A stretch of DNA of 43,669 nt, taken from Pleurotus ostreatus/Saccharomyces cerevisiae fusant. Its lineage: Eukaryota; Opisthokonta. The position numbers were made by a program, and so were the translations under genes. Below, piece by piece: positions 7,705-39,838 of the stretch (the stretch's first letter is position 1; each line of letters opens with the position of its first letter). The notes under the pieces are model-generated. The model ran no database searches. It was given only the letters and a program-made list of their open reading frames with translations, and was not told the DNA's origin. The stretch is from NCBI GenBank assembly GCA_024196135.1, contig JAMQCK010000178.1, positions 1 through 43,669 on the forward strand, given 5' to 3'.

Positions 7705-7776
7705 TGACGACTTCGCTCCCTTCGCCAACCAGCGTAAAGAGTTAACGGGCAAAAAAAGATCCTTTATGAATGAGAT

Positions 7777-19009: not shown

Positions 19010-19017
19010 TATATAAT
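19010..19017 (+). promoter_or_regulatory. TATA box upstream of the split transposase gene
   Basis: TATATAAT, followed within 35 bp by the short upstream frame at 19051 and 118 bp before the main ATG at 19128. Confidence 0.5.
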
Positions 19018-19050
19018 CCGCTTTAATCAGCATTAAATCAAATAATAATA

Positions 19051-19080
19051 ATGGCGAGCCATTGGCTGGCGCAGTCGTAG
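19051..19080 (+). promoter_or_regulatory. nine-codon upstream open reading frame
   Basis: ATG at 19051 in an A-rich context gives MASHWLAQS and a TAG at 19078-19080. It precedes the main ATG (19128) on the expected leader and could lower translation of the transposase-like gene. Confidence 0.4.
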
Positions 19081-19127
19081 CGATCTCCCCCGAAAACAAC
19101 CATCCGATCTCCCTTCCATCCCCTCGT

Positions 19128-20311
19128 ATGCCTCCTTCGAAAGCCCAGAAACAAGCGGCTGCTCGTGCACGAGCCGGACGAGCCCGCGTGCGACTCGGTT
19201 TATTGACCCCGCTTCCTCAACATTCATACGATGAATCCCCCGCCGTCGAAGACTCAGATGATGGCGATTCGGTGTGTTGTTGGGATGGCGGTGTGAATAG
19301 CTGGTCAGACAACGAGTCAGACGACGCAGAGTGGGTGGACGAGGAAGACTTACAGGCTGCGAACGAGCAAGACGAGGATGCCTCGGAGGCCGAATCATTG
19401 CAGGGGGACGAGCTCATGGACAGCCTGGTGAAGGAAGCTCAGCAAGAACTGGAGATGCTGAAGAAGATAACCCCTTACGAGAAGATCAAGACTCGTACCG
19501 TCTCGTCGCAGGAGTGGGCGAAGGCAGAGTCCAAAGTGGGAGTGAAGAACGGGCTCTCGCCGCGGACAGCGCGTCGTCACGACAAGGACCAGCGAGACAA
19601 GGAGAAGACTGATGCGAATTTACGAAAAACGTGAGTGCGACTGCGATGCTATCTGCGTGCACTACTCACTGATGGGATGCAGGGCCAGTGCAGCAGCGTT
19701 TCGCAAGTTCTTTGCGCCAGCGAGATCGAGCCGAGGGGAGGGAGGAAGTGGGTCCCGTGCAGCCTCTGTGATGGACTTGCGCGACATCATCGACGAAGGC
19801 GCCCTCTTCGATGGGTATCTATCCGACCTCAGCGAGGACTCCCGTGCTGGTGAAGACGAGGAGGTCGATATCTGGTACGATGAAGAACTGTACGACGCAC
19901 CTGAACCTGCCGACCCCGACGAGCCGCCCATGTCCTCCCCGACCTCCTCCCCGCACCCCTCTCCATCTCCTTCCCAGCCTTCGGCTTCTTCAGCAGCTTC
20001 CCAACCAGTATCGCCAGATCCCTCTGACAACGAGGACGCGTTTCCGGTCCGTGCACCACCTCCGCTGAAGCGTCGACGGCTTGACGTTCCGGTTCGTGAG
20101 GCGCGAGCACGCAAGGCCGCAAAGGTTCGGGAAAAGCGCAAGCAGGCGCTTCGCGCTATGAAGCGTCTTTTGTCGTCGAAGAAACCCTTTCAGGGGGGAC
20201 CCAATGGGCTGTTGTCGTACCGGATGCGTGCTATTCAGGCCTGCCTGCACATGGTGGTCGAGGACAAGATGGGTCTGATGGCAGCATCGCGGGTCGCCGC
20301 CAAAGCGAATC
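19128..20311 (+). pseudogene. DDE-type transposase-like gene, N-terminal half (split by insertion)
   Basis: N-terminal half of a basidiomycete transposon protein of the DDE-endonuclease-like kind. Exons 19128-19630 and 19683-20311 (intron 52 bp). It starts PPSKAQKQAAARARAGRAR after Met, then acidic and coiled charged stretches, RASAAAFRKFF at the second exon start, an acidic/Pro/Ser-rich middle, basic LKRRRLDV, and RMRAIQACLHMVVEDKMG. That last stretch leads into a helix-turn-helix-like region that in relatives continues directly to the piece found at 38755. Here the frame runs instead into inserted DNA and stops at TAA 20338-20340 after ten foreign residues. Joined across the 7-bp duplication GCGAATC, this half (1,132 nt) and the right half (797 nt) make one open frame of 643 codons. 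A truncated protein could still be made. Confidence 0.85.
20305..20311 (+). repeat. left target-site duplication GCGAATC
   Basis: The same seven bases occur at 38748-38754 beyond the right end of the element. With one mismatch either side the duplication could be scored as 8 bp. Confidence 0.85.
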
Positions 20312-20356
20312 CTCCTGAGGCTACCAGAAAGTATGGCTAAGGACGCATCTTTTCAT
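20312..20356 (+). repeat. left terminal inverted repeat
   Basis: Key blocks are GGCTACC 20319-20325, AGAAAGTAT 20326-20334 and CATCTTTTCAT 20346-20356. The same blocks in the same order occur, inverted, at the right end. Confidence 0.85.
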
Positions 20357-20754
20357 GCCAAAGTTCGGTCCTTCCTCACTTTTCCTGGTCAATCAGAAAC
20401 TTATATTAGAATAGTCTACTTTTCAGAAGGCTCATCAGAACCTTCGTGCAATGCAGAACAAACTATTTGGAAAGTTACACCATTAGTTCAAAGTCCTGTG
20501 ACGAAGTTTCCCTGCAGAATCTCTAGAGTTAGTGTAGACAATCTTCTAGAAAGCCTGCTCCAGAACATCTGCCATGATGAGAGACTGACCTCCCCATCAC
20601 AGCACTCAAGTCGTGGACTCTCAGCAAGAGGAACATGCAGATTCATTCATACCCAATATGTAAGTCCATATGATGAAGCACAATATGCCAGAGTACCGAA
20701 AAGGTAGGAGAATATACAAAGACAAAAGGCCCATGACTAAGAACAACACCCAAC
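20357..20754. other. left subterminal non-coding region of the element
   Basis: About 400 bp, AT-richer than the genes. It contains scattered degenerate AGAA and TTCT half-sites that resemble the palindromes of the right arm (for example around 20420-20440 and 20495-20560). No gene. Confidence 0.5.
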
Positions 20755-23700
20755 TTATTTCCGACGACGCTTCTCCTGCTTCTCGCGCCGCAAGCGGACC
20801 AGGGTTTCCAAGCGCTCGCGCTTGAGACGTGCCTCCTCATCTTCACCCTGCTCCTGCGCGTCCTCATCACTCTCCTCCCCGTCCTTCGCGCTGTCATCCG
20901 CAGGGTCGTCGGCCTTCGAGGTCTCGCTGCCCTCGCCCTCCTCGCCCTCCTCGCCCTCCTCGCCCTCCTCGTCCTCCTCGTCCTCCTCATCGTCGTCCTC
21001 GTCGACCTCGTGCCAGAACGACTGCCACTTGATGCGTGAGTCGGTACCATTCTGCACGTCCTGCTTGTACATGTTCGAGTCCTTCCAGCGCTTGTATCCG
21101 TAGACGCGAGGGGGCTTGTTCGGCGCGAGGGTCTCGGGGGGTGACTGGACGAGGGGACTGCCAGCAAGTAGCTTCAGGGGACCCATGACGGCGTTTCGCG
21201 GCAAGGGGACGAGGACGACGACACCGTTCTTCAGCAGGTAGCGGTGGGCTTCGACGCCTTCGAGGCCCAGGCGGTTAGACTCGCGCTCGAACTTCTTGCG
21301 CTTCTCAACCATCTCGTGGACCTTCGGAGCCCAAGTACCGTGGCCGCTAGGCTTGCGCGACACGCCTTTGGCGGGGATGTTGTTCGCGAGCTCCTCAATC
21401 CAACCGGCGATGACGAAGCCGAGCTGATAAGCGATGTCGAGCAGCTTCTCGGCAGGAAACTGGCTCGGCGTCATCGTGTTGCTCTTCGACGTGAGGCGGT
21501 GATTCGCGATGATGTACATCATACCTACATTGTCCTTGATAAGTAACGTGAATGAGAGAAGAACTGATATACGCACCTAAATCCCAGCGCAGGATCTCGT
21601 AGAGGAGACGCAGCGCCTCGTCGCTGAGGTTCTTGCCCAACCGGTGAATATAGTTGCGGTATGCGAAGTAGCCAGGCGGATGAGCGGCCTTGTCGGCAGC
21701 TACTTCCTTCAGCCATGCCTTCATCTCCGGGCTTTCGGCGTCGTCTGTCGGGTCGGGAGGGGTCTCCGTGTCATCAGTCAGACCGCGCAACCTCAATTCG
21801 CATGATCTAAGGCAAAGTCAATGGAAAAGAACGCTTGCGCGCGAAGAAAAGACATACCGGAGCAAGGTCGTGATGTCGTTCATCCCTGCGGTGAAGTTCC
21901 CTCGGAAGCGCCGAATCATTTCGGCGTACTCAGGGCCGCCGCCGAACATGGTCGACGACACCGAACCCTTCGCGCCCCCGCGCATGTCGACAACGTAGCC
22001 TACAAGGGCAAGCCCCGCATTCAAGTGGGCGCCGAGGGCGACGCGAGAGAGCTGCTCCGCCGTTTGGTTCACCAAGCGCTGGCGCTGGCGAGCCGTCGCG
22101 TTCTGAATGGCCTCTTCTTGAATTTGCGCGCAGAAGTCGTAGTCGTCCTTGAAGTGCTCGGCGAGTTGCTCCTCGCTAGGCCTCGGTCCAAGACGGTCAA
22201 GCTTTGCCCTGTAGGCCTTGTTCATGCGCGTCCGGCGTCCCTCGGTCGACTCTGAAAGCAATGTTAGACAACGTGTTACGCAGAGTAAAAGAAGAAGCCT
22301 ACCATTGGGGTCCGCAGGATGTGTGGCTGCCCAGTGTCTCGAAAAGACTTGCTGGCGAGTCCACTGACGAGTTCGCATACACTCCAACGCCCTCCACCCC
22401 GCCGCTCGCCAAAGCGCCTCGACTGGCTTCTTGCACTTGATTGCCTCCTTCACGAAGGTATCCGCCAGCATACGCGTGGCGTCCTGCAAGCGCTGAGCCG
22501 TGGCGGCAGGGATCGGCCCTGAGTTGACCTTGCCGGACGTCTTCGAGGAGTCGCCCGTGCTCGATGCGCGCCTCGTCGAAGGGCCAGGTTCGTTAGGATC
22601 CGGCTCGTCGGTGAAACTAACGCAGCCCTTGAGCTGCGGCGGTAGCGGCGCGTCGTCGTCCAAGAAATCGCGAGGGTCGAAGTTGCTCGCACCGGGTAAG
22701 TCAAATAGGTCTTCATCCGCAATGTTTCCCTCGACGTCGTCTTCGTCCTGCGGGTCTGCGCGTTGCTTGCCTTTGTCGGCGCGCGGCGCGGGAGGGGCAT
22801 CGTCGTCGTCGTCTTCGTCGTCGTCGTCGTCGGCGTTGTTGCCGTTCGCGGGCGGTGGCGGTGGCGAAGGCTGTCTCGGTTGCCTGCCTTTCTTCGGCGG
22901 GGGAGGGGTGTCGTCGTCGTCGTCGGCGGCCGCGGCGGCACCATCACCTGCACGATCGTTGGTGGACTGCTTGGGCAGCTGAAGTGGAGGGGGGCGGGCA
23001 CGTTTCGTCTTCTTCGTCGGCGTCGAAGGTACGTCGCGCGGCTTCTTCGCCTTTTTCCTAGGGTTTGGTGAGGGCGGCGGCGTATCCCTGTCGTTGAGGG
23101 ACGCGAGCGCGGGCGTCTTGCCATTGCCGATTTTGGGCGGGGGGGTCGGCATAACGAAGTCGTCCTCCTCCCATTCGAGCAGCTGACGGGGGCGCGGGGG
23201 GGTGACTGGCGCGATGTAGTCGTCGTCGGGAGGGATGCGCGCCTTCGCCTCTCCTCGCCCTGCTTCCTTCTTCTCCTTGCGCATCTTCTTCTTCTGAACG
23301 TCCCCTCCCTTCTCCCCCTTCTCCCCGCCCTTCCTCGCGTCCTTCTCCTTCAATCCCCCCTTCGCTGTTTCCTTCTCCCTCCCCTTCCCCTTCCCCTGCG
23401 CGTTCGGAACCTCCCCCTTCGCCTCCCCCTCGTCCCGCCCTACATCCTTGCGACCGCCGGCCCCTCCGCCCTTCCCAGCCTTCGTCGCCCTCTTTGCGCC
23501 CTCGCCAATGGCCTCAGCATCGTCCTGAGCTCCCTTCGACCTCTTCTTCGCCGGAGAGGCGCCCAGCGCGTCGGGAGAGCGACCGCGCTTCTGATTTTTT
23601 GCCGGCGCGGGGGCGCGGGGCGGCAAGGCCTCCCTTCTCCTCTTCTGCGAGCGTGCTGAGGGAGATGAAGGGCTCTGCGGGCGTGGTCTCTTGGGTGCTG

Positions 23701-24537
23701 CGCCCGGCCTGACGTGCGCGACCTCCTCGCTGGATGGCGAGGGGGGCGTCGCAGGTGAAGCAAACTCCAGCCCGGTCTTCAAGGTGGACCCGGTGGGGGG
23801 AAGCTTTGGATTATTGCCGGTCCTGCCAGTCGCCGCGCGGGATGGGACCTCGACATAGGCGAGAACTTGGCGCACGCGTGAAGCTGAAGCCGCTGCCCCC
23901 CGCGCAATAGATGGCGGGGGCGCAGGGCGTCCAGGGGGTCCCGCAATAGATGGGGACCCGCCCTTGGCGGGGGATGGTGGTGCGGAAGCCTTGACGACGC
24001 TGGCGTAGGACGCCAAGCGGCGCTGTGTTCATCGTGAGCCTCGCTGAGCTATGAGAGGGAGTGTTGTTTGCTCACCGCGGGCGCGTCAACCTCCATGGGC
24101 TGCTCAACAGAAGGCGCCTTCGGCGAACTGCCGACGTTGGACCGCGCGTCCTCGGCGTCGGAGCCCTCCTGTGCCTTGTCGACGTCCATGGACGGCGACT
24201 CTGCGCGCGACGGGGTCTTGGAGCGCGCGTTCGACGACGCCTTGGGGTCGGGCTCAGTGCTTGGTGTCGCCGCGACTGTGATCCCCTTCGTCGCATTTGC
24301 CTTGGCTCCTTTCGCAGCGGCGGATGCGGGTCCGTACTTGTACTTCGGGTTGCGCGTTCGCCGGTCAGGAAGTTCGCGCGTAGGGGCGCGCGGCGCTTTC
24401 TTGGAGGCCTCAGAGGCTTTCGGAGCTTTGGCGGCTTTGGCGGCAGCCGCAGCGATCTGCGCGCGGGTACGGGGCTCGGGCTCGGGGGGCGGCGAAGGCG
24501 CGGGGCTCGGCGTACGCGACTGTGGCGGGGAGGACAT
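20755..24537 (-). CDS. unknown 1,191-aa transposon cargo protein
   Basis: Function not recognised. Five exons on the minus strand: 24537-24076, 24022-22303, 22251-21858, 21806-21577, 21524-20755; introns 51-53 bp; total 3,576 nt in frame. The ATG at 24537 starts MSSPPQSRTPSPAPSPPPEP. Residues 1 to about 600 are low-complexity: Ala/Lys/Pro-rich blocks, many basic runs (KKRSKG, KKKMRKEKKE) and acidic runs, probably disordered and nuclear. The more globular part begins near NSGPIPAATAQRLQDATRML, with QRQRLVNQTAEQLSRVALG, FRGNFTAGMNDITTLLR, GYFAYRNYIHRLGKNLSDE, and KLLDIAYQLGFVIAGWIEE. The tail is a long Glu/Asp tract followed by a basic end (KQEKRRRK). No catalytic motif, zinc finger or membrane segment is seen. 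Its place inside the element, downstream of the transposase and TET genes on the same strand, suggests element cargo. Confidence 0.8.
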
Positions 24538-24849
24538 TGTTCGGGCTGTAGCGGAAGTGCTGGAAAATGACAGGCGGCGCGAAAGTTCGGGGACGAAGGT
24601 TCTGCTTATCCTTTCCGAAACTTCGCGAGCACCCAGACACGCCTGATTCTGCCAATTAGTTGCAAATTCCACGAAATGCAAAGTAAGGGGTCCACTTGCC
24701 GATAAGATCTACAATTACTCCCACGGTTGAATTTTCGGCATCAAGGCAGCCATCTGATTGCTGGCTTGCACATTGTGATATCCTCGTTAGGAAATGTTGA
24801 TTTATGCAGCATGTGCGCCGCCAGGAAATAGGCTACGGTAACTAAGAAC
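24538..24849. other. short intergenic region inside the element
   Basis: 312 bp between two leftward cargo genes; presumed promoter of the 1,191-aa gene. Nothing else is recognised. Confidence 0.5.
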
Positions 24850-26052
24850 CTAGCAGAAGTGAATGATGGAACGGTAAGACCGCGGTGCGTCCACGCGGTA
24901 ACAAATTGCGCAGAGAGCGCGCCAGCACAGGACCGGGGGGCGTGTGAGGGAGGGACTTATTGCGACCGGTTCAGACAACGCGGTAGGCTTCAGCGCCAGT
25001 GACCGCCGCGGCGCGCCGTGCACAATTACCGTGCCTGCGTCTTCGAAAAAGCCATTCTGCCGGAGTAGTTCCCGGTGATGCCCGGGTATGACCCAGCCTC
25101 CTTCAAGGACCGGAAGCCACACGACGAAGGGGATACAACTATGCTACGGGGCGTCAGGCGTTGAGCGACAGATGCAGCGGCACGGCTTACCATGCAATAG
25201 AACTCGCATTCAATGCATTGAGGGGTAGTGAGAGGGCGAATGATGTGGATGGGACGCCGAGGCCAGCCGCGAGAGTGAACCTCCAAGTGTATCGTCTCGT
25301 TTGAGCCAGGGAGGGGAGCGGGAATCATCTCCCACCACGAGATCTTGAGGAGGGCGCTGTTCTCCAAGCGTAGGTAAAGGTCGCTCTTGCCGGGATCGAG
25401 GCCTTCCTTGACGAGCCAAGAGACCGCGTTGCCGGGGATGTACATGTTGAGGACGTTGACGCCGAGGTGGACGATTTCGCGCGGCTGAGATGGCCGTCAG
25501 AGATGTACGACGTTGGACAGCGGGCTACGTACCTCGCCCATGTCATCGCCGACGCTGAAGTGCACGGAGACGCTGTAGTCCCCGTACCACTCCCCCTGCC
25601 CTGCGCCTTCCGCCTCGTGCTCGAGCCAGGCGAGCCGTTTCTCATTGTCCTGAAGATCGGCCTTGACCATCGCGCGCGTCTCGTTGTACGCCTTCGCCAG
25701 GTACATCGGAAACAGCAACTTGTGCTCCCCCGGAGACCAGCCATATGCGTTCAGTACCGTGCTTTCCAGCGGTTGCACCGCGCTCCGCATATTGCGGACG
25801 AGTCTCCGGTCTGTCCCTAGAAAGATCGTCAGCGCCTACGTCTCGGGAGGGCGAGGCGAGCCCACATGCTGCATTGCGTATGAATCCCTGCTCGAGGGCA
25901 AGAATCCATACGCCCGTTTGAAGGCTGTAGGCATAGTAGCGGCGGACCTTCCAAAGGGCTTGCTCGGCGGCGGAGAGGCCATATATGCAAGCTTCTATGC
26001 CTGCAGGCAGCGTCGCAACGTTGACGAGGTTGACCTGCACGACTTGGTTCAT
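24850..26052 (-). CDS. unknown 352-aa transposon cargo protein
   Basis: Not recognised. Four exons on the minus strand, 26052-25866, 25816-25533, 25484-25191, 25143-24850, give 1,059 nt in frame with 47-49 bp introns. The start used is the ATG at 26052 (MNQVVQVNLVNVATLPAGIE); the frame is open further upstream and an extra 5' exon ending near 26093 cannot be excluded. The protein looks globular and rich in aromatic residues: ALWKVRRYYAYSLQTGVW, NAYGWSPGEHKLLFPMYLAK, EWYGDYSVSVHFSVGDDMGE, EIVHLGVNVLNMYIPG, ENSALLKISWWEMIP. The C-terminal exon is Cys/Arg-rich and its end is less certain. No known domain or catalytic triad. It lies 184 bp downstream of the TET/JBP gene on the same strand, so a joint function or joint regulation is possible. 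Confidence 0.7.
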
Positions 26053-26236
26053 CACAAGCGTGGTCACGGCGGACGCGTACGTCTGAGGCGAGCAGTCAAT
26101 TCCAACGCGGCAGACGCCGAAGTCTCACAGTCACATGGCATACCAAAGTTCAACTTCCCAGAATTGGGTTTATCCCCGAACCGGTTTTTCGCGGTGTACG
26201 CTCATTCCAAGCAATACGTCAACTGCGGCGGTACTT

Positions 26237-28009
26237 CTAATCTACGGAAATCCCCTTGACGACGGCTTCCGCATCGCGTCTGAGCTTCGGTAGACGAGAC
26301 AGCATTGCCACGCCCTTCCTCCACCGCGACGCGTTTGCCTTCCTAGCCTCGCGCGCGCCAGCGGCGTCCAGCGAGCCATAGTATTTCTCATCGAGCTTGC
26401 ACCCGTGCTCGACGAAGCGAAAAATGGCCCCCGATGTGTACTGGGTCACCGAGTACCGTTGCTCGTCGATGCCGATGTCGGTGTTGAGGTGGGTGATGAG
26501 GGCGGATGGAACGATGATGCTTGAGCCCGGGGGGAAGCGTATGACGAGCTTGAGCTCCCTCAGGATGAGGTGCCCCCCTAGGTCCGGATTGAAGCGACCG
26601 AGCGCAGTTATCGCGCAGAAGCCGTGCGACAGATTGCCGAAGTCGCGGTGGCCGACGGTCACGGTGCGAGGGCCGAAGTTGATAGTAAGGCATGCCCAGA
26701 CGCTCTTCGGGAAGTTGAAGAAGCGGCGGAGTCGGGGTTTCCAGTCGATCAGCTTGCGGTTCGTGTCCGCGTAGTGTTCGTGAACATCTGGTTGCCAGTT
26801 GTTCAGCGCCCCTACGCAGCGCGTCAGCGTCGCTTGCGCTTGCTGAGCGTGGCGTGCTTACCTGAATTGACATGCGCGATCTGCTGCATAGGTTTGAGGT
26901 TGACAATGCGCATCAATTCCCTGCGCGTCTTGTCTGAATGCTTCAAGGGACCCGGCTCCTTTATGTACATTAGCCCCAGTGATCGCTGGCGTAGCATGTC
27001 GCTCACCTTCTGCCCTCCTCCGTGTGAGATCCCGATCGCCTTTACGCTGAACAGGCCGCGACGGTGTTCGCGTTCATCAGCGGCGAAGGCGATGCGAGGG
27101 CGTGTCTTCTCGATGAGAGCCGCGATCTTCTCGTGCGGTATCCTCGCCTTCCCGCGGCCGCAGCCCACAAGCATGGCCATGATGACCTGCTCCTCGTTGA
27201 CCGTCACGGCGCCGTTGTCGCTGCGATAGGGAGGGTCAGAAGGCAACGACCGATCGCGCGGGGGGCACTCACACCCCATCCCAGTCCAGGAGCTTGTACC
27301 CTACGAGGTCCTCGAGCGCCGGAACCCCCGACTCCCATGCGTTACGGAGGCACGTAAACCCAGTGCTGGTTACCGGGGCCTTCGTAAAGTTATACGTGGA
27401 CTGTTCTTGAAAGGCGTCGAGGATGATGTTCGCCCGGTGGCGCTTGGAGGCATCGCTGTTGTTCCCCCGGTCCTGCCGCTTGCGCTTTCGCTGCTCTTGG
27501 CTCCTGCGAGCCTTGCCCGACTTGGGTGCTGCGCTATGTTCACCGGCTGCCAGGGGTGCGGGGCTTCCTATGGCGCGGTCGTCGTCCGGTAGCACGGGCG
27601 CTTCGGGGCCCTTCTCTCCCACCCCTTCGTCCTCCAGGTCGGTCAGCTCTGAGAGGGGGGAGGAGGATCGCGTGGACGGCAGCGAGGTGAGCACAGAATC
27701 CTCGTCCCAGTGCAAGTCGGCTTGCTCGGCCCGGTGGCGCTCGGCGTCCTCGAAGAGCTCGTCGAGGTTGACGTAGTTGGGGAGAGGTACGACGTTGCTG
27801 AAAGCAGCGCCGCTACGCGTCGTTCGAGCTGTAGACACGGTCAGCGTAGCTGGGGTTGAGAAGGGAGTGGCCGCTTGCTCCGTAGGCTCGGAGGGCGTCG
27901 GTTGTCCCGTCTGCCATGCGTTGACTGACAGGGTCGACTAGCTCGTCGCCGCTGGACGGGCGGCCACCCGATAATACTCACCGCATAACGCCTGTGCTAG
28001 CCTGGACAT
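26237..28009 (-). CDS. TET/JBP-family 2-oxoglutarate-dependent DNA dioxygenase
   Basis: Fungal TET/JBP oxygenase, expected to oxidise 5-methylcytosine in DNA to 5-hydroxymethylcytosine and further, using Fe(II) and 2-oxoglutarate in the nucleus. Exons on the minus strand: 28009-27982, 27924-27273, 27220-26862, 26811-26237; 537 aa. The start ATG has a CCACC context and a tiny 28-nt first exon. Residues 1-220 are disordered with a basic stretch (KARRSQEQRKRKRQDRG). The catalytic core is about 230-485: VNEEQVIMAMLVGCGRGKAR, HRRGLFSVKAIGISHGGGQK, TINFGPRTVTVGHRDFGN with the iron ligands H401 and D403, PGSSIIVPSALITHLN with the third ligand H454, and QRYSVTQYTSGAIFRFVEHG with R465 as likely 2-oxoglutarate ligand. 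All key residues are present. It sits 134 bp downstream of the KDZ transposase stop, same strand. Confidence 0.92.
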
Positions 28010-28143
28010 GGTGGTTGCAGTTGTCTGCGAAAATTCTCAGCTATTCGGTCTGCATGCCGGCATGCGATCGAACTTACGTGTCAAGAGCATGTTATTGTTC
28101 CACGGAGACCGCGTAATTGGCAAAAAATTAACAAGTTGACGAG

Positions 28144-31100
28144 CTATGCATACGCGTCATCCTCGTCGTCTTCATCGTCCTTGTTCTCGTCGTCATCCTC
28201 GCTCCCCTTGCCCATGTCCTGCCCGTCCTCCTCCTCCCCATCTTCCTCCTCGTCATCTTCGTCCTCATCCGCGTCGCCCTCGCTCTCAGTCCCCTCGCTT
28301 CCGGCACCCCCTTCGTCGCCGCCACCCTGTGTAACTACTTGCGTCGCATCTGCAGCTTGCGCGCGTGCCCCCCGCGCCTCCTCATCACTATCATTATCTG
28401 CATCATACAGCGCCCCGACCATGTCCTCCAGGGCATCTACCAGCTCCTCGTCCTCGTCAACTGCATCGTCAACATCTCCACCAACCCCAGGGCCCTCTTC
28501 CTCCTCCTCGGGCGCATCTCGGAAGGGATCCGCTGCGCTGCGCGCGCCTTGGTCGTCGCACGAAGCAAACACCCATTCCTGGCGAGCGAGCGTCATTTGC
28601 GAGGGTGAGGGACCGCGAACCTCCAGGCCGTTATGCTCCCACTGAACGGCAATGCGCAGATACCCGCGTTTCCGGTCCGTCAGTTGGTGAAGCAATGCAG
28701 GAGCATCTGAGGAAACTGCGTTAGCTTTGTACCTGTGATGCGATATCTGCAACGTACCCGGTACACCAATCGCTGCGCGGAGCGCGGCACGGACGGTTAA
28801 CCATTCTTCTTCGAGCCACTGCAGAACGTTTGCGCGCTCGTGGGCAAGGCGGGCCTCCTCTTCGACACAGCGATCGAGTAGTAGTCGGCCGCGTATTGCT
28901 TTTCGGACGTTTTCGTCCGACATCCAGGGCGGGGCTTCAACGTCGGCGGAGTCGAACCGCAGGTCGTCCCAGCAGGGGTTGTCGATGCCTAGATCCCATA
29001 GCCCCGTCTTCGGCAAGGGGTTCAGGGGCCGAACGGGGCAGCTTCCTCTGCGCGTGCGCTGTCGTTTGATTTGTTTGAGGAGCTCGGCGCATGCTTTGTT
29101 GTACTTGGAGACGATCGACTTGACCGTTCCTTCGCGACGCTCTGCAGCCGTCTTGATGTGTTTGCGCAGGCGATTTTCTTGGAAAATGTAATTAATGGGG
29201 CAGTCAATTCGAAATGGGAGACGGCTTACCCCCATTCTTGTTCCGGTGTGAGCGAACGACGCGCTCCATTTCCATCTTGCGCTTCATGATACCCATCTGG
29301 GCGCGGCGAAGAAGGACGAGCGCGTTTGCCCGACGGTGCAGGATCTTGTCGTTCAAGAGCTTCTGCAACTGCGCGCGCGCTGGCACCCCGAGCTGGGCGA
29401 GTTTGCGCTCGTACCTGGCCTTTGCTGCTGCATACGAAGCCTCCGCGCTGCGAAGCGCCGCGATGTGCTCTAGATCGGAGGACGATATCCCCGCAAGGTC
29501 GTCCCGCTCGGCGGCGGCGCGCTCCACCTCTTCATGTAGTTCTAGGGCCTTCTCTAGTTCTTGTCGGCCGAGATTTTTGCTCTGTTCTATTGGCAAGGTG
29601 TCAGTAACAAACACGGCATGTGTAACGCACCGGACTTACTCGGCGGGGGGCGTGTTTGTTCGGCGACTTGCGCACGCCACTGCTCACGAATGAAGTTCTC
29701 GTCGCGTGCGACGTCGCCGGCCTCCTCGAGGAGAAGGTAGGCCTCCTTGCGCTTGTCGGCCAGGTTGCGGGACTTCCGGCTCAGCCAGGCGCCAATTCCG
29801 GTGATCGCATCTTTCGTGGCAAACGCAAATTGACCGTTGAGCGTATACTTGCGGAGGTGATACTACACGGTCATCAATTTGTATTCGGAGTGAAAAGAAC
29901 GCTCTTCAACATACCCCTGCGACGCGAAGGTACGGGATCAGTTTGCTGATCGAATACCAGAACCTTTCGCATCCTTCTCCATCCGTAAGCCCGAACCCCA
30001 CGCGCTTGCGCGGATGGTAGATCAACTGGCAGGGCAGATCGTGGCCGAAGGCGTGGAAAACTGACACCGCGAAGCGAAGTCGACCGAGGTACGATCCAAA
30101 GAGACCGTACTTGACCGCACTCAGGTGGATCTGGCATGCAATGTCGTACAGGAGGCCGACGATCCAGTCGAGGGGAAGTTGTTCCATCAGGGCGTCCATT
30201 AACGCTACCGCATAGAACTGTTGCTCTCCAGGTGTTGTCATATTCGCCCAGAATAGTGGTATATCGTGGCGACAGATGAGCCCCATGACGGCCGTCACAT
30301 CATGGCTGCCAGTATTCGCCTTTGCGATGGCGGTCTGCGCGGCTTTGAAGCTATCTTCGCAGTTCTGTAGGGCTTCTGAGGGAACGCGGATACCGGCGGC
30401 CTGAGGATCGAACGCCGACGCCTTTGTCCTTCGATTCGCTGTCTTGCGAAGCGAGTGCACGCGCTCCTCAGCTATTCGCAACGCGCCTTCGGTCAGCATG
30501 ATGTCGCCAGGGTGATGGAATGCCGGGTCCCGGGATTGCTTATTATGTTTTTGCGAGAAGCATGCGTCGATGGCCACTAAGGCGTCGGGCGCGTTGGGAT
30601 CGGCGGCGCTGATCCGGCGATTGCTGCCGAAACACGCTGGACAGCGCGAACGGAGGTAATCCGATGGCCTGGTCAGCGTGGGCCGCGATGGCGCATCGCC
30701 TTCGTCGGCATCGGAGACTTCGTCGGCATCGGAGACTTCGTCGGCGACAGTTGCGGGCGCCTGCCGCTTGCGCTTGCGGCCGGCGAGCGCGGGAGGTTCA
30801 CCGTCGACTCGGCGACGCGACAGGGGCGTCGGTGAGGAGGGCGGACCGTCACTACTGTCATCGGTATCGGACGCGCTGGATGGAAGACGCGATGGCGCGG
30901 GCGCGCGATGGCCTGCCGAGTTTACAACTTGACGCGCGGCGTCGAGGACGTTGTCGACGTGCCTCTGCACGTTGTCATGTAAATAGGTGAACCAGAGAAG
31001 GGCGTAGCCGAAGCGTTTGCGCAAGTTGTCCTGCATGACGGTTAGGTTGATATGTCGGGGGTGAGAGCCAATGAGCAACATACCGAATAGTTCAACTTGT

Positions 31101-32094
31101 GGAAGCGCGCCAAAAGGAATGCCTCAGTGGCCTTGCACCAGGCAGTGACGTTTGGCGAGATTTGGAGGAAGAGTAGGCGCGCGAAGTCGAGCACGTTTAT
31201 GTCGACGGCGAGGGAGGGCTTATACGGTGCGCAGGGGAATAAGCCGACTGCGACCAGCTGCCGAGCAGCTGGTGAGCAGTAGCACGTCTGCAAGGCGATG
31301 CGAGAGACGCCTAAGGCTGAGTTAACACGTTGTTTCTCATACAAGGAACCCAGCTCACCTGCCATGCGCAATACAAGGACGGACAAGTTATGTCTCTCCT
31401 TTCCGTGACATGTACACTGAACCGGCGGCGGCACGTCCCGCTTGGGAGGATCACGAAGATTATTCGTCTCCTCCATGAGCCGCATATATGTCTTGCGCAG
31501 CTTCGGTATGATATCCGTCAACCACGCCTGTGTTGTGGCCTGCCGCTTTGCACGGTACACCTCCCTTCGCATCTCTTTGGCCACATCTCGTTCCTCTCCA
31601 TCTTCGTCGTCCGCCATCGCACCCGCGCCATCGTCCCCATCGTCCCCATCCTGCTCTTCGTGTTCGGAGCTGTTGTCGGCATCGAGCGGGTCTACACCGA
31701 GGGCGAAGCCGATTTGAGAAGGGAGGGCACGTCGTCGAGCCCTATCCTGAAGTGCGCGACCGGCGTCGCGGAATGCCACCACAGGGCTGACATGTCTCCG
31801 TTGCCTGACGCGCTGAGCATTGACCGATTGGGGAGTGAGACCTGTGCCGACTGAGGTGCGTAGTGCGCCGCGCGTAGGTGTCCTGAGGTCAGGTCGATCG
31901 CTGAACTGACGTGCGCGGATGGGGGTGGATGGCGTTGGAGGTGGTGAGGTGCCCGCGCTTGAAGACTCTTCGTGGCTTGACGATTGCCTTGCGACGCTCG
32001 ACGATCGCCTGGGGGTCGACGGTCCCGCGACATCCGAGGAGAGTAGATGCGCCGCCTGCCGGTTACGCTGAGAGGCATTAATTCGCTTGCGCAT
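28144..32094 (-). CDS. KDZ (Kyakuja-Dileera-Zisupton) transposase with CxC cysteine cluster
   Basis: Seven exons on the minus strand, 32094-31359, 31316-31084, 31030-29915, 29862-29640, 29586-29230, 29177-28758, 28706-28144, give 1,215 aa; introns 42-53 bp. The N-terminal 180 residues are Ser/Arg/Asp-rich. About 185-320 is a CxC1-like cysteine cluster (AWLTDIIPKLRKTYMRLM, VQCTCHG, LQTCYCSPAARQLVAVGLFP). The KDZ core follows: CPACFG then ALVAIDACFSQK with D478, LLYDIACQIHLS with D619, VFHAFGHDLPCQLIYHPRK, and LTDGEGCERFWYSI with E675. These are the acidic triad and flanking motifs of the family's RNase H-fold nuclease. After it come coiled-coil regions (SKNLGRQELEKALELHEE, NRLRKHIKTAAERREG) and a long Asp/Glu-rich tail. 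No stop or frameshift is seen, so the enzyme may be functional. It would cut and paste the surrounding element. Confidence 0.93.
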
Positions 32095-32640
32095 GTGTCA
32101 GTGAGAGGACGTTGAAAGACGCGAGGGAACACACAGATAAGATCGATTTTAAATCTGGTTCCGTCCGTGGAGGTGGGGGTGCCTGTGATCGGGGTCAACG
32201 ACGGAACCAGATTAGATCAGTGGGTGAAGGCACACCTCGACCTGCACGATTTTGGTGCGGTTCTTGCAGCTTTTCGTTGCTCTTTCGCGTCATGGTAGCA
32301 GGAGGTGCCGTCTTCGGACGACGGATGAATTTCTGTAAACGCCTACGTGACTACATATAGAGACAAAGACGGCAAGTACAGACATAAAAAGCGAATTCGC
32401 AGTGCTTGTGACGCTGCGGCTTCCTACGCATAGTCGCCCCTGTTCATCGTGTACAGTCGGATCCTGTACAAACGGCGATGGGTAAGCGTCACCAGCCAGT
32501 TTGGTGGAGCAACGCGTACCAACGGTACGTGGTCGCCCTCCTTTGGAGGGCTTTACAGTCGTTTCGGACCACCTGGCGGCGGCACGTCGAGTCCGTTCGC
32601 GGGTCGAGGTAGCGAGCCGGTCGCTGGGGTACGGTACGCA

Positions 32641-32707
32641 CACCGTTGGTCCCTCGATAGACGGGGACCAACTCACCCGTCCCTCGATAGACGGGGACGA
32701 GAGTGTG
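32641..32707 (+). repeat. 67-bp inverted repeat, left copy
   Basis: Contains two direct copies of CCCTCGATAGACGGGGAC (32651-32668, 32681-32698). It matches the reverse complement of 33223-33289 with a single mismatch by eye. Confidence 0.9.
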
Positions 32708-33222
32708 TGGTAGATCGGGGCGCGAGGCGCCGGGCTTGAGGGCTATCCATGGACGGTGAAGGCTATGAGGGGGTAGATAAGAGAAGTGTCGGGGGACTCG
32801 AGGGACGGCGGCGGCGGCGGGGGAAGTCCTGACGACGGTGCTGAGCGTGCAGAATGTTCTGCGGCAGCGTGCAAACCAATCGTCGCCAAACACGCAACAG
32901 ATCAACAGGCGCACACTACGCCACATACGTAAGCTGACAACGCCACATAATCATACGACGCCACATACGCAAAGCCCCACGGTTTTCCAACGCCGCTCGT
33001 CGCCCCCTTCGCTCGTTGTCGCCGCCGTCGCCGCCGTCGCCGCCGCCGCCGCCAACGCCGCCGATCCTCCTCCCCTCGCTCTCTTTATCTCATCTCTGAA
33101 GCCGGCCCCGGCGTAGTTTGTACCTTGGACAACATCCAAGTTTAGCGTAAGTTTTCTTTTCCTCACGTTAAGCGCCTCGCTCACATTATGTGGTAGTTGC
33201 TTCATCTCGACATCTCCTGCCG

Positions 33223-33289
33223 CACACTCTCGTCCCCGTCTATCGAGGGACGAGTGAGTTGGTCCCCGTCTATCGAGGGACCAACGGTG
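33223..33289 (-). repeat. 67-bp inverted repeat, right copy
   Basis: Inverted partner of 32641-32707, with two more copies of the 18-bp word on the opposite strand. The repeats enclose 515 bp and stop sharply at both sides. Confidence 0.9.
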
Positions 33290-33370
33290 CCAGCGTAATC
33301 CGCCGTGCAAGTGTCGCCACCAGCGCCGCCGCCCACCGCCGCCTCCACCCACCGCGCATCCACCTCGATC

Positions 33371-36300
33371 ATGGCCTCAAGTCTGCCCCCGCCTTCCACG
33401 AGCGCTGCTCCTCCTCCCCAGTCCACACCGTCGAACAATGCGCCAGACGCGTCGTCGTCGTCGGACACGCGCCCAGGCGCGTCGGCTGCGCTGAGCCCTG
33501 ACGCGTCGTCGGTCTCGGAGACGTCGGCCTCGAGGATGCAGGTCGCGCCGAGCGGCCTGGTCATTCGTCCGACCACCCCGGAAGGTGCTAAGCACCCCGC
33601 AAAGGTCACCTTGGCCGACGACGAGTATGATGCCATGCAAGCAGGCTGGCCCGGCATGCGCAAGCGCGCCCTCGAGGAGCGTCAAGCCGAGTTGGAGAAG
33701 CGCCCCCGCGTCGAGAAGCGGTACATCCTCATGGGACTGGAACCCTTGCACGCGCCATATCATAACGAGCTGTCGGCGGCGGAACAGGTGCGACGCGTCC
33801 GAACACCACCGTAATTTGTACTAATCACGTCTCTCAGGCCATCGACTATCGGCTTTACCGAGATCCTGGCAACGTCGCGGGCGAGAAGGACGCGCTCTTT
33901 CGAATTGTGACCCATCAGCCTCACAAACGCGCTGTGTGCGCCAACGACGAAGGATACGATGTGGTCTTCCCTTCCCTCGGCGTCTACTTGCGGAAGACGG
34001 ACCTTCCAGAGGACCTGTTTTCTGCTGTGCCAGAACGTGCGTCCTTTCCCCTATAGTATCGTATGCCTACCTAACTCGCGCGTGTCAGCCGAAGACCCAG
34101 CTCTGCGTTACCGTGTCATCGCGCTCTCTCAGGATGCGAGGTATCTCGCCATGAGCCCCAACGCCACCTATGCGCCATACGCGCCATCCCCCGACGACGA
34201 GTTCTACCGCTTGCGCATGCGCGTCGACGGTAATTTTGGCGCGGAGGATCTTACGCTGGTTCCGACGTACTTCATGCGCGGCAGGGCGCCACATATTGCG
34301 TGTATCCCGCGCTGCCCCCCTGCTCCGGGACACCCATGGCATCTCATGTTTCTCGGCGTCGAGGTCTGGTTCGAGAAGATCGACACGCGCTACAGCCCCG
34401 ACAACGACAAGGTGGTCTTGACGCCCACGGCCTTTACGGAGCTCAAGAAGCTCATCTGGCCCCTGCGCAAGCTCACTGCTCAGTACTTGCTGGAGTGCAA
34501 GCAGAAGCAGGTCGAGGCCATCCCCTGGGCGCGCGGTTTGGAGATCACCTTGCATCACCTCTTGATGCGGATGGCATACCTCCCCGTCGACCTTCGCCGT
34601 GCCGTGCTGATGGCCCGACAGTGCCAGCGTCTATGGCGCGAACTGTTCGGCATGCTCAACTTCGTCAACCTCGTCCAGGGCGTCCTCACCGGCCGCGTCG
34701 ACCCTCCCGAGCTTGCCACGCCCCACTGGTTCATCGGGACCATCACTGAGGACCTCGACCAAGCGCAACTGCTCTTCCTCGCCGGAGTGCCGGTCTGGTA
34801 TGTCCGGGACGTGGAGTCGGTGGTTGCTCTCGCGAGAGTGCCCGGACGGCAGGGTGTCCCCCATGCGAAAGTCACAGCGCAGATGCGCTCCCAGGCCGAA
34901 ATGGCGTGCATCGATCGGCATCCGGACAACTTGCCCTACATCTGGCAAGGCACGCCCCGGGACTGGCAGCGCTTGCATTACATGCATCGCTACTCGACCA
35001 CAAGCGTGGCGCTGAGCAAGCCGGCCGACGGCGACAACCACGACCCTCTCTTCTTCGACGGCAGTCGCACCAATCGCCATGCGCGCTTCGGTGCATCCAC
35101 GGAGCAGGACCTCAAGGACATGCCCACGTACATCACCGAAGTCGCCAGGTCACCGCCGCCGGTCATCGCCTCGCGCGAGCTCATTACGTTGCCGCCCGTC
35201 GACTTTGCGCTGCCAAGTGTGCTGAACGAGGAGGTCGAAGAGCCTTCGGAGACGCTCCCTGCCATGTTCTACGGGCCAGGGAAGGGCAAGGATCGTGCGC
35301 CGCCTTCACAGCCATCGAGTGCAGCGTCGTCGATGGTGTCGCGGTCGTCGAGTTCGGCGCTGGCCGTCGCGTCATCAAGTTCGGCACCGTCAACCACGTC
35401 AACATCTACTGTGCCATCGACGACCGCCCCGGCCCCCGCCGCGACCTGGGTCGGTTGGGCTCCACGTCCTCCGGCTGGTCCCCCTCCGCGTAAGTCGACA
35501 TGGGCAAGTTCTATACTCAAGCTAACATGTATTTTTAGGTCGCCCCAGCGCTGACCTGCCGTCCGTGCCCGAGAGTTGGGCAGACCAGATTCGGTGTGTC
35601 AAGCCCAACTGGGTGACGGAGGCTGTCAAGACCGACGACCACCGCTGCTTCCCCACACCGAGCGTCATGGTCGGCCCGGCGACAAACGAGAAGTGCGCAT
35701 TCTTCCTTCAGGCCTGGACGTTGCTCCTCCCCACCCTCCTTGAGAACGCGCGCCGCAACTTGCGCGATGCGGACACGTTCGCCATGCATGGCCAGGGGAT
35801 GGGAGAGCGCTCTTGGGGCTCCACAGCGCCGCTCACCGAACGTCGCAATCCGTGTGGGCTCAGCTCTGGCGACTGGAGGCAGCTCTTGTTCGCCCGCGTC
35901 ACGGGGCGTAGCCAGAACTCGTTCGTCAGCTTCCAGATGACCGAGATTCGCAAGGTGCTCGGCGACGACTTCAAGTGGACCGTGTTCGTCGACGACCTCT
36001 TCAAGCCGTACACCCTTCGAGGCCAAGTGCTGCAGCCGGGCGTCCTGCCGTCTCCGCGCATCTTGAGGATCGAGCTTATGTATATGCAGGAGCTTGTTTT
36101 TCGCCAGGACTTCATTGAGGTGGATCGGCGTGTTCGCGTCGTGTTCGTGAATGCCTTCGAGGAGACCGAACGCCTGCGACGTGTCTTCGACAAGCGCACC
36201 TGGAACGGCATCGACATCTTGTGCCTGCGCGACCTCGGGACGGGGCGAGGGTTAGCGGCGTGGGACTGGGTAGAGCGTTCGCGCTACGTGCAGGCGCTCG

Positions 36301-36488
36301 CCCAGCTGATGAAGACGTGGCACCCGTCGTTGCCGAGGCGCCTGCACGCGGCCGCAGATGCTCATCGCATCGCGGCGGAGGACTACCTCTGGTTCGAGGG
36401 CCAGGTGATCGCCTTCTACGTGCGCGTCCTGTGGCACGCGCTGCACCGCACCGCCATCGCGCCGCCGCGCTACCCCGATGGCCCTTAG
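33371..36488 (+). CDS. unknown 988-aa transposon cargo protein
   Basis: Not recognised by function. Exons 33371-33787, 33838-34036, 34089-35489, 35539-36488; three short GT-AG introns; 2,967 nt in frame. The ATG at 33371 starts MASSLPPPSTSAAPPPQST; residues 1-85 are Ser/Pro/Ala-rich and disordered. A globular part then follows: EKRYILMGLEPLHAPYHN, GYDVVFPSLGVYLRK, PTYFMRGRAPHIACIPRCP, WHLMFLGVEVWFEK, a helical middle (RMAYLPVDLRRAVLMARQ), and LLFLAGVPVWYVRDVESVV, a phrase I associate with large unannotated basidiomycete families near transposons. A Ser/Thr/Ala-rich linker (about residues 625-680) leads to a second globular part with WTVFVDDLFKPYTLRGQVLQ, FIEVDRRVRVVFVNAFEE and WFEGQVIAFYVRVLWHALH. 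No catalytic signature is clear. It is transcribed away from the KDZ transposase. Confidence 0.82.
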
Positions 36489-36857
36489 TCGATGCTCGTC
36501 TGCCTGCTGCCCGCTCGTTTTTTGTTTGTTTTCTTGATTTTTGTACAATGCTGCATCCCCCTCCCCCTCACGTACCGTTCTTAGACTTGTCTTTGCCTCA
36601 ATATACTGGACTTTTGCTGACGATTCTTGTTATGACTGATTGTGTGCTTCATGAATGTTGTAAGTACATCCCTCACCTGCAGGAGCATTGCCTGTCAGTC
36701 AACGTATGGCAGACAGGACTTCGTCGCAGGCCCTATGCGCCAGGTGTAGGAGCGACTTGTGTAGAAATTTCTGCTCCACCACAGTGCAGAAGTTTCTACA
36801 CAAATTACTTCCAGAATGTTCTAGACCACGTCGCAGTAGAACTGTCTAGTAAAACAA

Positions 36858-37157
36858 TGCAGAAACTTCTGCGTTGCGTTGCTGTAGAATATTCTGTTCT
36901 GTGTTGCCGCAGAATATTCTACAGCTATGCGACGCAGAAGTTTCTGTTTGTCGTTGGTGTAGAAGTTCCTGCTCGTCGCCGCTGCAGAATCTTCTGTTCT
37001 GTATCGCTGCAGAAGTTTCTGTTTGTCGTCCCTGTAGAAGTTTCTGCACCTCACCGGCGCAGAAGTTTCTGTTTGTCGTCGCCGCAGAAGTTTCTGTGCG
37101 TCATCAACGCAGAAGTTTCTGTTTGTCGTCGTTGTAGAAGTTCCTGTTCGCCGGTGT
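36858..37157 (+). repeat. 12-unit, 25-bp array of GAAnnTTC palindromes
   Basis: Twelve consecutive 25-bp units, each with a conserved 12-bp palindromic half such as GCAGAAGTTTCTG or GTAGAATATTCTG and a 13-bp less conserved half, often TTTGTCGTCG-like. More diverged palindromes precede (from 36759) and follow. The core fits the heat-shock-element dimer nGAAnnTTCn. Confidence 0.9.
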
Positions 37158-37198
37158 CACAGGAAGTTCTACAACGACGACAAACAGAAACTTCTGCG
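37108..37198 (+). repeat. long hairpin at the end of the array
   Basis: Arms 37108-37146 and 37160-37198, 39 bp each, are reverse complements with one mismatch, around a 13-nt loop. The array changes direction here. Confidence 0.88.
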
Positions 37199-37336
37199 TC
37201 GCATAGCTGTAGAACACTCTAGTAGATAACTCAGTAGTAGAAAGCTTGACTGAATTATGACCATATTATACTTGTCTTTGCCTTGACAGAGTGACCTTGG
37301 CTACTATGAGACCGGTGCACAGTAGCAACACTGTAA

Positions 37337-37415
37337 GCACCTATGGTCTAATGGTAAGGGCTCTCGTTGTGGCTTGACCACCCGAGGATACCAAGTTCGA
37401 ATCTTGGTAGGTGCG
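37337..37415 (+). tRNA. tRNA-His-like gene (anticodon GUG), probable short intron
   Basis: Acceptor stem GCACCTA pairs with TAGGTGC; D arm GTCT...GGGC; T arm CCAAG TTCGAAT CTTGG. The anticodon loop contains TTGTGG, the usual histidine loop, and CTCG pairs with CGAG. About nine extra bases after the anticodon (CTTGACCAC) would be an intron. The variable region is then only about 3 nt, shorter than usual, so the gene may be slightly degenerate. It lies inside the transposon's right arm. Confidence 0.65.
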
Positions 37416-38424
37416 ATGCACGCTGTGGTACTTCTTTTTTGTAAATATTCACTGTGTAGGAGTTACGCTAATCTCGATAGGCCTAATAAAGCAGGCACCA
37501 ACAGTATACTTGGTAACAAGGTCTAGAACATTCTATAGTTGCTTGTTGTAGAAGTTTCGATACCGCACAATAGTAGAATATTCTGAAGGTAAACAGTCTA
37601 GAATATTCTGAGAGTAAATCCCGCAGAAGGTTCTAAAGACATGGCTACATGTGATGAAACGGGATGCAAAAAGGCAAGACAAGCGATGATCAACAGAGCA
37701 CATCTATATGGGATAGGACAAGATAGGACAGGATAGAAGACGATAGATTACGACAAATTATCAAGCAATAAGGCAAAATAGAATGATAGTATAAGAACAG
37801 AGAGGACATGGTAGGGTAGGATAGGCAAAGATGAAACAATTCCTTAGATGATTGCCGGACTGCTACAGATAATTATGACGGAGCATATTAGTGATCTCAG
37901 TATATAGTAGTAGAACCTTCTACGGACTTGACTTCAGCAAAGGTAGGACTAGGTACAATGAGATGTTTATGTTTATTTGGTAGACAATAGAGCTTCAACA
38001 AGGTGATTACGACTCTGACAAGTATATCGTAAGACAACTACGATCACTAAGTAGCTATATTGTCCCCGACTACCTTCAGCAATAGTACAGTACACATAAA
38101 GTACATAGATCAGTAGACTGTTATTAATGGTCTATAAGATAGTAGTCAGCATAGTAGATGGGACAAACATAGAGATAAATATCAAAGTTGTGGCTTTTAT
38201 ATGCATAACAGTATGAGAGGTAGTGCTTCCGTAAGATATATGACACTGCAGTCTCGCAGATAGCACACATATAGCCACTTACCTTCCTGTATAACATTTG
38301 CCTGCTCCTTTCAGCTTATCCTCATCTATCGCCTTCTATACCCAGCCAGTGTTGCACCTGTCAGATATCTACGGTGAGTGGTACACCCAGTGATAAGTAA
38401 CAGTGGATTGATTTCAGAAAGGCA

Positions 38425-38482
38425 TGGTAGTAGTAGTAGTAGTAGTAGTAGTAGTACTAGTAGTACTAGTAGTACTAGTAGG
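38425..38482 (+). repeat. GTA microsatellite with CTAGTA interruptions
   Basis: About ten GTA units followed by alternating TAGTACTAG steps, in the non-coding right arm. Confidence 0.9.
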
Positions 38483-38700
38483 TGTAGTGGTATAGATTCA
38501 GATTGAAGGTAGTAAGGTATGCATTACTATACTTGTATACACAAGGAAGTACTGTATATAACGTATAGGGAAGCCCTGGAGGTACAGCTGTATATAGAGA
38601 CAACAAGTTCTATAAGGGGCATATAAGTTCTACAAAGAGTTCTAAGGAATAGAAAGGTCAAATGGCTGGAGGAAAGTATTGAGGAGGGTCCAATAAATGT

Positions 38701-38747
38701 ATGAAAAGATGTATGTTTATTGTATACTTTCTAGGTAGCCAAGGCTG
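38701..38747 (-). repeat. right terminal inverted repeat
   Basis: On the plus strand: ATGAAAAGATG 38701-38711, ATACTTTCT 38724-38732, GGTAGCC 38734-38740, then seven bases to the border. This is the inverse order of the left terminus. Confidence 0.85.
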
Positions 38748-38754
38748 GCGAATC
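38748..38754 (+). repeat. right target-site duplication GCGAATC
   Basis: Identical to 20305-20311. It is immediately followed by the continuing reading frame of the interrupted gene. Confidence 0.85.
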
Positions 38755-39551
38755 TCTTCTCAGAGAAATGGGGCGCGCGGCAGGTGCGGCACTGGACGCA
38801 GCAATACGTGAAGACGAGAGCCTTGCCGCGCTCCCGACGTGGACTGCACGCGAAGGCCTTCTCGATCTTCAACGATCCTGCCGTTCGTGCTGCTATCTGC
38901 GGGTACATGCGATCCAACAAGTGGTCGCTCAATCCTGTCAAGCTCCGCCAACTCATGAAGAATGAGCTGGAGAGAGATGAGGCGACCGCTTACGCGCAGG
39001 AGATCGTCTCGCAGGAGATGCCTCGTGGCTTGAAGAAGTACGTTGAGGAGGTCGTCCTCCCTCGAATGCATCTTAAAGCCCGTGGCAAGGGATATTCTCT
39101 GGCTGCAATGCGCCGTCTCATGCTACGCGAGGGCTTCGTCTATACACCCCATTCGAAGGGGATCTTCTTTGATAACCACGAACGGCCGGATGTTGTGGAG
39201 GACCGGACAGAGCGCTTCGTCCCCGCTATGCAGGCTCTCAAGCCTCAGCTCGTCCAGTACAAGGTTGGCGACGTCGCGACACTGCAGACCCCATCTCCGT
39301 CCTTCCATTACGCCCAAACAAAGCTCGTACTCGTTGCTCATGACGAGATGACTGCTCAGGCGAATGACGACACGAAGGCCTACTGGCATCTCGAAGGCGA
39401 GTTCCGCCTGAAGCCGAAGGGCGTCGGCCGTGGACTTCACCAGAGCGACTTCATCTGCTCGACTGTTGGGTGGCTCAAGGATGCGAGTCAGACGCTTGAG
39501 TACGGAAAGAATTACGAGGGCTACTGGAACGGTGAGCTGTTTGTCAAGCAG
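38748..39551 (+). pseudogene. DDE-type transposase-like gene, right half (split and truncated)
   Basis: Continuation of the gene whose left half ends at 20311. The frame runs FSEKWGARQVRHWTQQYVK, AFSIFNDPAVRAAICGYMRS NKW, EMPRGLKKYVEEVVLPRMHL, RRLMLREGFVYTPHSKGIF, ERPDVVEDR, LVLVAHDEMTAQANDDTK (probable first catalytic Asp/Glu), then GVGRGLHQSDFICSTVGW and EYGKNYEGYWNGELFVKQ, ending at a GTACGC donor (39552). In relatives further exons carry a DNSQGH motif and a downstream glutamate. I find neither in the next 290 bp, where the oppositely oriented DUF6532 gene begins. So the gene was both truncated at its 3' end and broken by the KDZ element. The half itself has no stop or frameshift. Confidence 0.85.
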
Positions 39552-39838
39552 GTACGCATTTTTGCCTCTCCACCCCATCACAAAATGGCCTCTCAGTCCC
39601 GAGACTCCCGCGAGCATCTTCAGTCACCCTGAGGGCGCATCAGGACACTCAGGGCACGAGGGCACTCAGGTAGACTCCCCTTCGACTTAATTTCCGTGAC
39701 GCTGCCTGGGGACAACTTGATAACCCTGAAGAACTGTAATTACAGTAGGCCTTACTTGAGTTCTTGATGACAAACAATGGATTTCATGTCCGACAAGACA
39801 TGCATACAGTACTGCTACAACAAACGGTACATGACATG

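Follow-up and report, generated by a model that had tools for sequence, protein, structure and literature searches.

The window analysed here (43,669 nt, contig JAMQCK010000178.1 of assembly GCA_024196135.1, deposited as a Pleurotus ostreatus/Saccharomyces cerevisiae fusant) contains an 18,436-bp element at 20312..38747 that, with a probability of about 0.85, we regard as a complete TET-bearing KDZ DNA transposon of Kyakuja-like behaviour, inserted with a 7-bp duplication into an incomplete DDE-transposase-like gene. The features that can be read from the sequence itself are its borders and target duplication, the uninterrupted paralogues of the target gene, a block of genes, a palindrome array and, on a close relative, the TET fold. 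Elements of this kind are already known; this one also has the array, which is unusual, and a transfer RNA (tRNA)-like gene near the right end. For a class of transposons that carries a demethylase-like gene, exact ends, target duplications, uninterrupted target paralogues and several open-frame copies are available in one genome, and the clean borders and phased palindromes make both protection from silencing and the binding target of the KDZ machinery testable.

Borders and copies of the element

A direct repeat of GCGAATC flanks the element on the left (20305..20311) and on the right (38748..38754), as read from the sequence and from comparison with other copies. A preliminary, sequence-only reading had noticed this repeat and set the limits of the element at 20312 and 38747, and both limits hold, since other genomic copies end on the same bases; an 8-bp duplication, which that reading had allowed for, is not seen in the window, where the adjoining bases differ (A/G and C/T). 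Searches of the element's own genome covered the 40.05-Mb assembly of 1277 contigs, in which the window is contig C367. All three other left ends recovered by DNA search begin exactly at the base matching 20312, and the single other right end begins at 38747. The exact right-end 14-mer GGTAGCCAAGGCTG has five matches in the genome (C184, C367, C535, C748 and C761), each on a contig with a KDZ match, and the telling matches to the left-end 16-mer, those on element contigs, are in C367, C748, C932, C761, C822 and C535.

Four elements are complete with both ends: that of the window and those of C748 (18,859 bp), C535 (18,812 bp) and C761 (19,469 bp, 678-20146), two of the four having been added by pattern searches and sequence comparison. 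Their flanking direct repeats are GCGAATC in the window, TAAGCTG in C748, GTAATAA in C535 and TTTAGAAC in C761, that is, a 7-bp duplication in three of the four, the window included. The repeat of C748 can be extended through adjoining matching bases, and the shared ends permit 7 bp. C932 and C822 are seen with their left end only and C184 with its right end only, and the count of duplications covers the four complete elements. A resemblance between the left flank of C932, TAATAACA, and the right flank of C535 was taken as chance, since C535's own duplication is GTAATAA. The target duplications point to cut-and-paste transposition with staggered ends.

The two ends, 20312..20356 (plus strand, tip CTCCTGAGGCTACC) and 38701..38747 (minus strand, tip CAGCCTTGGCTACC), form an imperfect inverted repeat. 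Three inverted blocks occur in the same order at both, in agreement with the earlier description: GGCTACC (20319-20325 left, 38734-38740 right), AGAAAGTAT (20326-20334 and 38724-38732) and CATCTTTTCAT (20346-20356 and 38701-38711). The proposed inverted repeats of 45-47 bp are therefore present in the window, but are weaker as a trait of the family: GGCTACC alone among the three blocks is well conserved across copies (it is at both ends in the window, C748 and C761, and C535 has GGCAACC on the left), and the outermost 7 bp are specific to each end (CTCCTKR left, CAGCCTT right). The left terminus is CT in all four complete elements, and the right terminus is TG.

The interrupted gene

The element separates two parts of a transposase-like gene on the plus strand, the left a stop-to-stop frame running up to the site (19546..20304) and the right at 38755..39553. 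Joined across the insertion point they give 547 continuous codons, stop to stop; the 643 first reported could not be reproduced, and a longer frame would need a spliced upstream exon. The right half, used as a protein query, has six matches in the genome, including two close paralogues on C99 and C221, and in both the reading frame passes the insertion point unbroken (window AAKAN^LFSE, C99 AAKANMLSE, C221 AAKAHLLSQ), so the halves are continuous in these relatives. Homology to these paralogues ends at window position 39553. The next exon of C99 is present in C221 at 76% identity, and no counterpart of it was found in the window at E 1e-3. This missing exon bears the motifs VDNSQGH and NFIEYFW, which we take to be DDE-like; the interrupted gene matches no Pfam family, and it is called a transposase because of these motifs. 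Because both paralogues keep the 3' exon that the window lacks, the gene was probably an incomplete relic already when the element arrived. Of the original proposal, an insertion inside another transposase gene, the interruption stands, in what was probably a relic without its 3' exon.

In principle the arrangement could be an assembly error, or a rearrangement that happens to lie between two matching 7-mers, with no transposition involved. The assembly is indeed in 1277 contigs, and C822 and C932 end within the palindrome array, but four complete elements with the same end bases, each with a direct repeat of its own, and the continuity of the paralogues make this explanation highly improbable.

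Gene content

Short introns link the open frames of the element into five genes, four on the minus strand (A, B, TET and KDZ) and one, gene D, on the plus strand. Gene A (20755..24537) has five exons by model, conserved in other copies, and belongs to no Pfam family. Gene B (25187..26052, both limits approximate) is small, and its relatives were found in Schizophyllum only (4/4 rows); a match of gene B to CbiM (E 0.015) lies below cut-off and was taken as chance. There follow a TET/JBP-type dioxygenase gene (26238..28009) and the KDZ transposase gene (28144..32094; five exons by model, 1246 aa), from which gene D (33371..36488; four exons by model, 988 aa) is divergently oriented; all 13 rows of gene D relatives are named Schizophyllum, the only genus in which they were found. 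The KDZ identity first proposed from the letters alone is borne out by Pfam, the main exon scoring 164.5 bits to the KDZ transposase domain PF18758 (cut-off 26.6), and matches to cysteine clusters remain below their cut-offs (CxC2 23.9 bits against 27, CxC1 22.4 bits against 26.9).

The complete block, A-B-TET-KDZ with D divergent, recurs in C748, C822 and C932. C535 has TET, KDZ, D and a weak match to B, with A exons in the exon comparison; C761 has B, TET, KDZ and D, the A side lying outside the compared sequence; and in C349 and C375 the pieces examined contain exons of KDZ, TET and B, to which genome search adds D. Gene D is on nine contigs of this element family, three others have matches that are more distant, and the genome has at least 24 TET-like exon matches and at least 27 KDZ domain matches.

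The TET protein of the window retains HRD (HxD), the distal His in ITHLN, and an Arg in RYSVTQY that we take to be the 2-oxoglutarate-binding residue. An AlphaFold2 (AF2) model of relative P0015, which is 68% identical to the window protein, has CcTet, TET2, NgTET1 and CMD1 as its best fold matches, and this comparison supports the TET identity given in the sequence-only reading. Pfam Tet_JBP reaches 20.4 bits (E 3.2e-4) on P0015, under the cut-off of 34.9, and has no match to the window protein. Relatives of the enzyme fill 87 rows, including Mycena, Pleurotus, Lyophyllum and Panaeolus; no named row among them is Laccaria or Coprinopsis (four rows are nameless). In the annotation of two relatives, P0014 and P0017 (S. 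commune / S. fasciatum), the tail of KDZ is fused to TET, so the same adjacency of KDZ and TET is seen in those species. Taken together, the relatives of these genes place the host in the genus Schizophyllum.

The palindrome array

A palindrome, AGAANNTTCT, is found 19 times within the final 2,262 bp of the element, where composition shuffling gives a mean of 0.058; the final 2,300 bp contain 14 copies in C748, 11 in C535 and 21 in C761. In the window it forms an array (36763..37195) with a 25-bp phase and one re-phasing, of which 17 units were tabulated: the eight letters of the core are preserved in 88-100% of these units, and the other positions in 35-82%. The core is kept in fewer units in C748 and C535, and alternate units are imperfect in C761. 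A second, small cluster of four sites lies at 37525..37634, and a single site lies between KDZ and D (32851..32860), where all eight copies examined have one (window, C748, C535, C822, C932, C761, C349 and C375). Core pairs exactly 25 bp apart number 53 genome-wide, against none for the reversed pattern; the 50 listed of these 53 are on C326, C349, C367, C375, C535, C748, C761 and C822, and seven of these eight contigs have a KDZ, D or TET match. The background of 52,368 bp, consisting of the flanks of the window with C99, C221 and C681, has no palindrome site.

C326, the contig without any such match, has a 25-bp-phased array at 13740-14065, which may be a fragment of an element end or belong to a non-autonomous element. 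In the C535 element, at element positions 17424-18381, TGACTTGTCA stands in twelve exact copies, for the most part at intervals of 102 bp; among the seven pieces counted, this one alone has them.

The evenly spaced array is unusual and looks like a docking platform. The main rival for the role of the palindromes is that they are heat-shock elements, bound by the heat-shock factor (HSF) of the host and making the transposon heat-inducible. The motif nGAAnnTTCn, contained in AGAANNTTCT, is the HSF half-site pair, and one site stands between KDZ and D in every copy examined. HSF, however, calls for at least three in-phase units of 5 bp, and the eight sites between KDZ and D show two; a pyrimidine before the palindrome (81/84 sites in the element pieces counted) and a purine after it (82/84) lengthen it to the 12-bp YAGAANNTTCTR; and the array is situated past the end of gene D, where none of the modelled protein genes runs outward from it. 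In another genus, Cryptococcus, KDZ1-3 mobilise only at 30 C in YPAD, yet KDZ3 also inserted in RPMI, according to the available part of PMC12810828. We consider heat-shock control unlikely.

Under the transposon reading, the KDZ protein would cut and join the element DNA, and YAGAANNTTCTR may be the binding site of a protein that the element encodes (KDZ, D or A), a suggestion drawn from the phase, the promoter site and the near-exclusivity of the palindromes. Such a protein would assemble at two places: on the array at the right end, for synapsis, and on the KDZ/D site, where it would regulate both genes. The TET enzyme would oxidise methylated cytosines on the element and so keep its genes expressed; this removal of methylation is suggested by the fold, the motifs and the argument made by Kojima (PMC12730594, available in part).

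Age, selection and CpG content

Exons were compared between copies by tblastn (E 1e-12; the best stretch was used, and those under 40 codons were left out), and 45 comparisons were kept. The ratio of nonsynonymous to synonymous divergence (dN/dS) is 0.022-0.494 in 43 of these, the other two being saturated, and a stop codon appears in one (C535, KDZ exon 1); these values indicate purifying selection on the coding exons. Synonymous divergence (dS) exceeds 1 outside C932 (0.19-0.83), except for A exon 5 (0.12 against C822, 0.87 against C748). The copies, judged by this divergence, are old, separately kept lineages, and the unevenness of dS suggests mosaics made by recombination. The "fairly recent" date first given can apply at most to this insertion; the element lineages are old, with dS above 1 in most copy comparisons.

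The ratio of observed to expected CpG is low in the left 430 bp of all five copies compared (0.31, 0.28, 0.17, 0.10 and 0.16) and in the last 1,100 bp on the right of all four (0.41, 0.36, 0.51 and 0.43), and is 0.83, 0.72, 0.65 and 0.78 in the preceding 1,100 bp. It is 1.17 and 1.00 in the flanks of the window, and 1.16 and 1.23 in two intergenic stretches of the window element. GpC, as a control, is mostly about 1, and low in C535 (0.51 and 0.58). The depletion begins at the element border, spanning 20312-20754 and about 37300-38747 in the window. This pattern fits ends that have long been methylated and a gene block that has been spared, though AT-rich ends shaped by some other constraint would give a similar picture. 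CpG-poor ends beside a CpG-normal gene block amount to a checkable prediction of methylation. Far more tentatively, and rather improbably, the transposon might be self-insulating: an element protein docked on the array and on the KDZ/D site would steer the divergent TET enzyme there, so that the gene block is left unmethylated, the outermost ends are methylated and lose CpG, and the tRNA-like gene acts as a chromatin boundary.

Comparison with known systems

TET+ Kyakuja DNA transposons have been described in Agaricomycetes (Kojima 2025, PMC12730594; here and below as far as the available part of the paper goes). The window element resembles them in its KDZ-type transposase and TET/JBP gene between defined ends, its 7-bp duplications, its Agaricomycete host and a right terminus fitting CA..TG. 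It has imperfect inverted repeats, however, where two Laccaria Kyakuja families are reported to have none, and beyond the TET+ Kyakuja plan it carries three further genes, the 25-bp palindrome array and the tRNA-like gene. The word tRNA is absent from the main text of that paper, and no description of such an array or tRNA-like cargo was found in the literature searched on KDZ elements and subterminal repeats, outside which lies the earlier KDZ description cited by Kojima.

The enzymes also differ. CcTET is a close relative of the AG type according to the same paper, and the window protein has no detectable sequence similarity to it: CcTET was not found at E up to 10 with the window protein (phmmer) or with a 49-row profile, nor with two relatives bearing a precomputed PF12851, and identity to the CcTet dioxygenase of Coprinopsis cinerea (7vpn, 7w5p, 8jkk) is 12%. 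By ungapped count from HxD, in which a gap is possible, the AG-type positions 331 and 337 are Asn and Cys (Gly/Ser and Asp in the AG type). The HxE of the PE type is not present, the window protein having HRD.

Experiments have shown mobility of KDZ1, KDZ2 and KDZ3 of Cryptococcus neoformans (PMC12810828, available in part), which likewise have a KDZ transposase, theirs with a cysteine cluster, and differ in size (about 9-11 kb), terminal inverted repeats (139-241 bp) and duplications (8 bp or 4-8 bp); the available text mentions no TET for them. In Hermes, a hAT element, the BED domains of the transposase bind subterminal repeats (PMC10368747, available in part). The likeness is one of working principle only, short motifs being repeated inside the ends and arranged differently at each; the Hermes repeats are short and near the tips, whereas the array of the window is regularly phased and almost all one-sided.

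Several observations weigh against our reading. Kyakuja membership rests on the length of the duplication, the left terminus being CT where the two Laccaria families have 5'-CA..TG-3' (PMC12730594) and inverted repeats being present. C761 fails a strict 7-bp test, giving 8 bp when the same end base is used. When one mismatch is allowed, the right-end motif is found at 23 places and its control at 19, so that only the five exact matches are telling; the left-end 16-mer, searched with two mismatches or fewer, turns up less often (20) than its control (39). In C184, KDZ and D accompany the right-end 14-mer, and no exact 25-bp pair on this contig is among those listed. Gene D has no Pfam match at E up to 10, and its AF2 model, built from 11 relatives, is poor (predicted local distance difference test, pLDDT, 37.8); for genes A and B no family was found in Pfam.

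The tRNA-like gene

The tRNA-like gene (37337..37415, plus strand) is called His(GTG) with a 9-nt intron by ARAGORN when introns are considered, and Ala(GGC) at the default setting; a run of T lies downstream at 37435-37440. A counterpart in C748 (18685-18764) has the anticodon TTG (Gln) and an intron differing in one of nine bases, and no other DNA match was found in the genome. A pattern search for a host tRNA-His as the source had 18 hits, with the sequence listed for one of them, and the reversed control had 16. In C748, Rfam also gave eight rows other than tRNA, seven of which are microRNA families; they score under their cut-offs, fall on a palindrome-rich stretch and were rejected.

We lean slightly towards the view that the right end and tRNA-like gene common to the window and C748 result from recombination between elements, the tRNA being a functionless passenger. 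The divergence from C822 is a mosaic (dS 0.12 for A exon 5, 1.07-1.32 for gene D), the last 275 bp of the element are 92% identical to C748, the sequence downstream of the tRNA-like gene is also alike (60/85 bases), and the scanned sequence of C535 and C761, which takes in the right-hand part of each, gave no tRNA call. By eye, C748 has mismatches in the first acceptor pair and in one anticodon-intron pair, and the acceptor mismatch makes a role in translation doubtful. Against a mere passenger, both copies exceed the Rfam cloverleaf cut-off of 29 (40.1 bits in the window, 36.6 in C748), the tRNA-like gene is identical in 68/79 bases where the upstream sequence has 28/87, and the anticodon-intron pair at position 37 has, by eye, changed on both sides, from G-C to A-U. 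Elsewhere in the window, at 7776-7863, lies a tRNA with a 12-nt intron that ARAGORN calls Lys(CTT) with introns and Ser(ACT) without.

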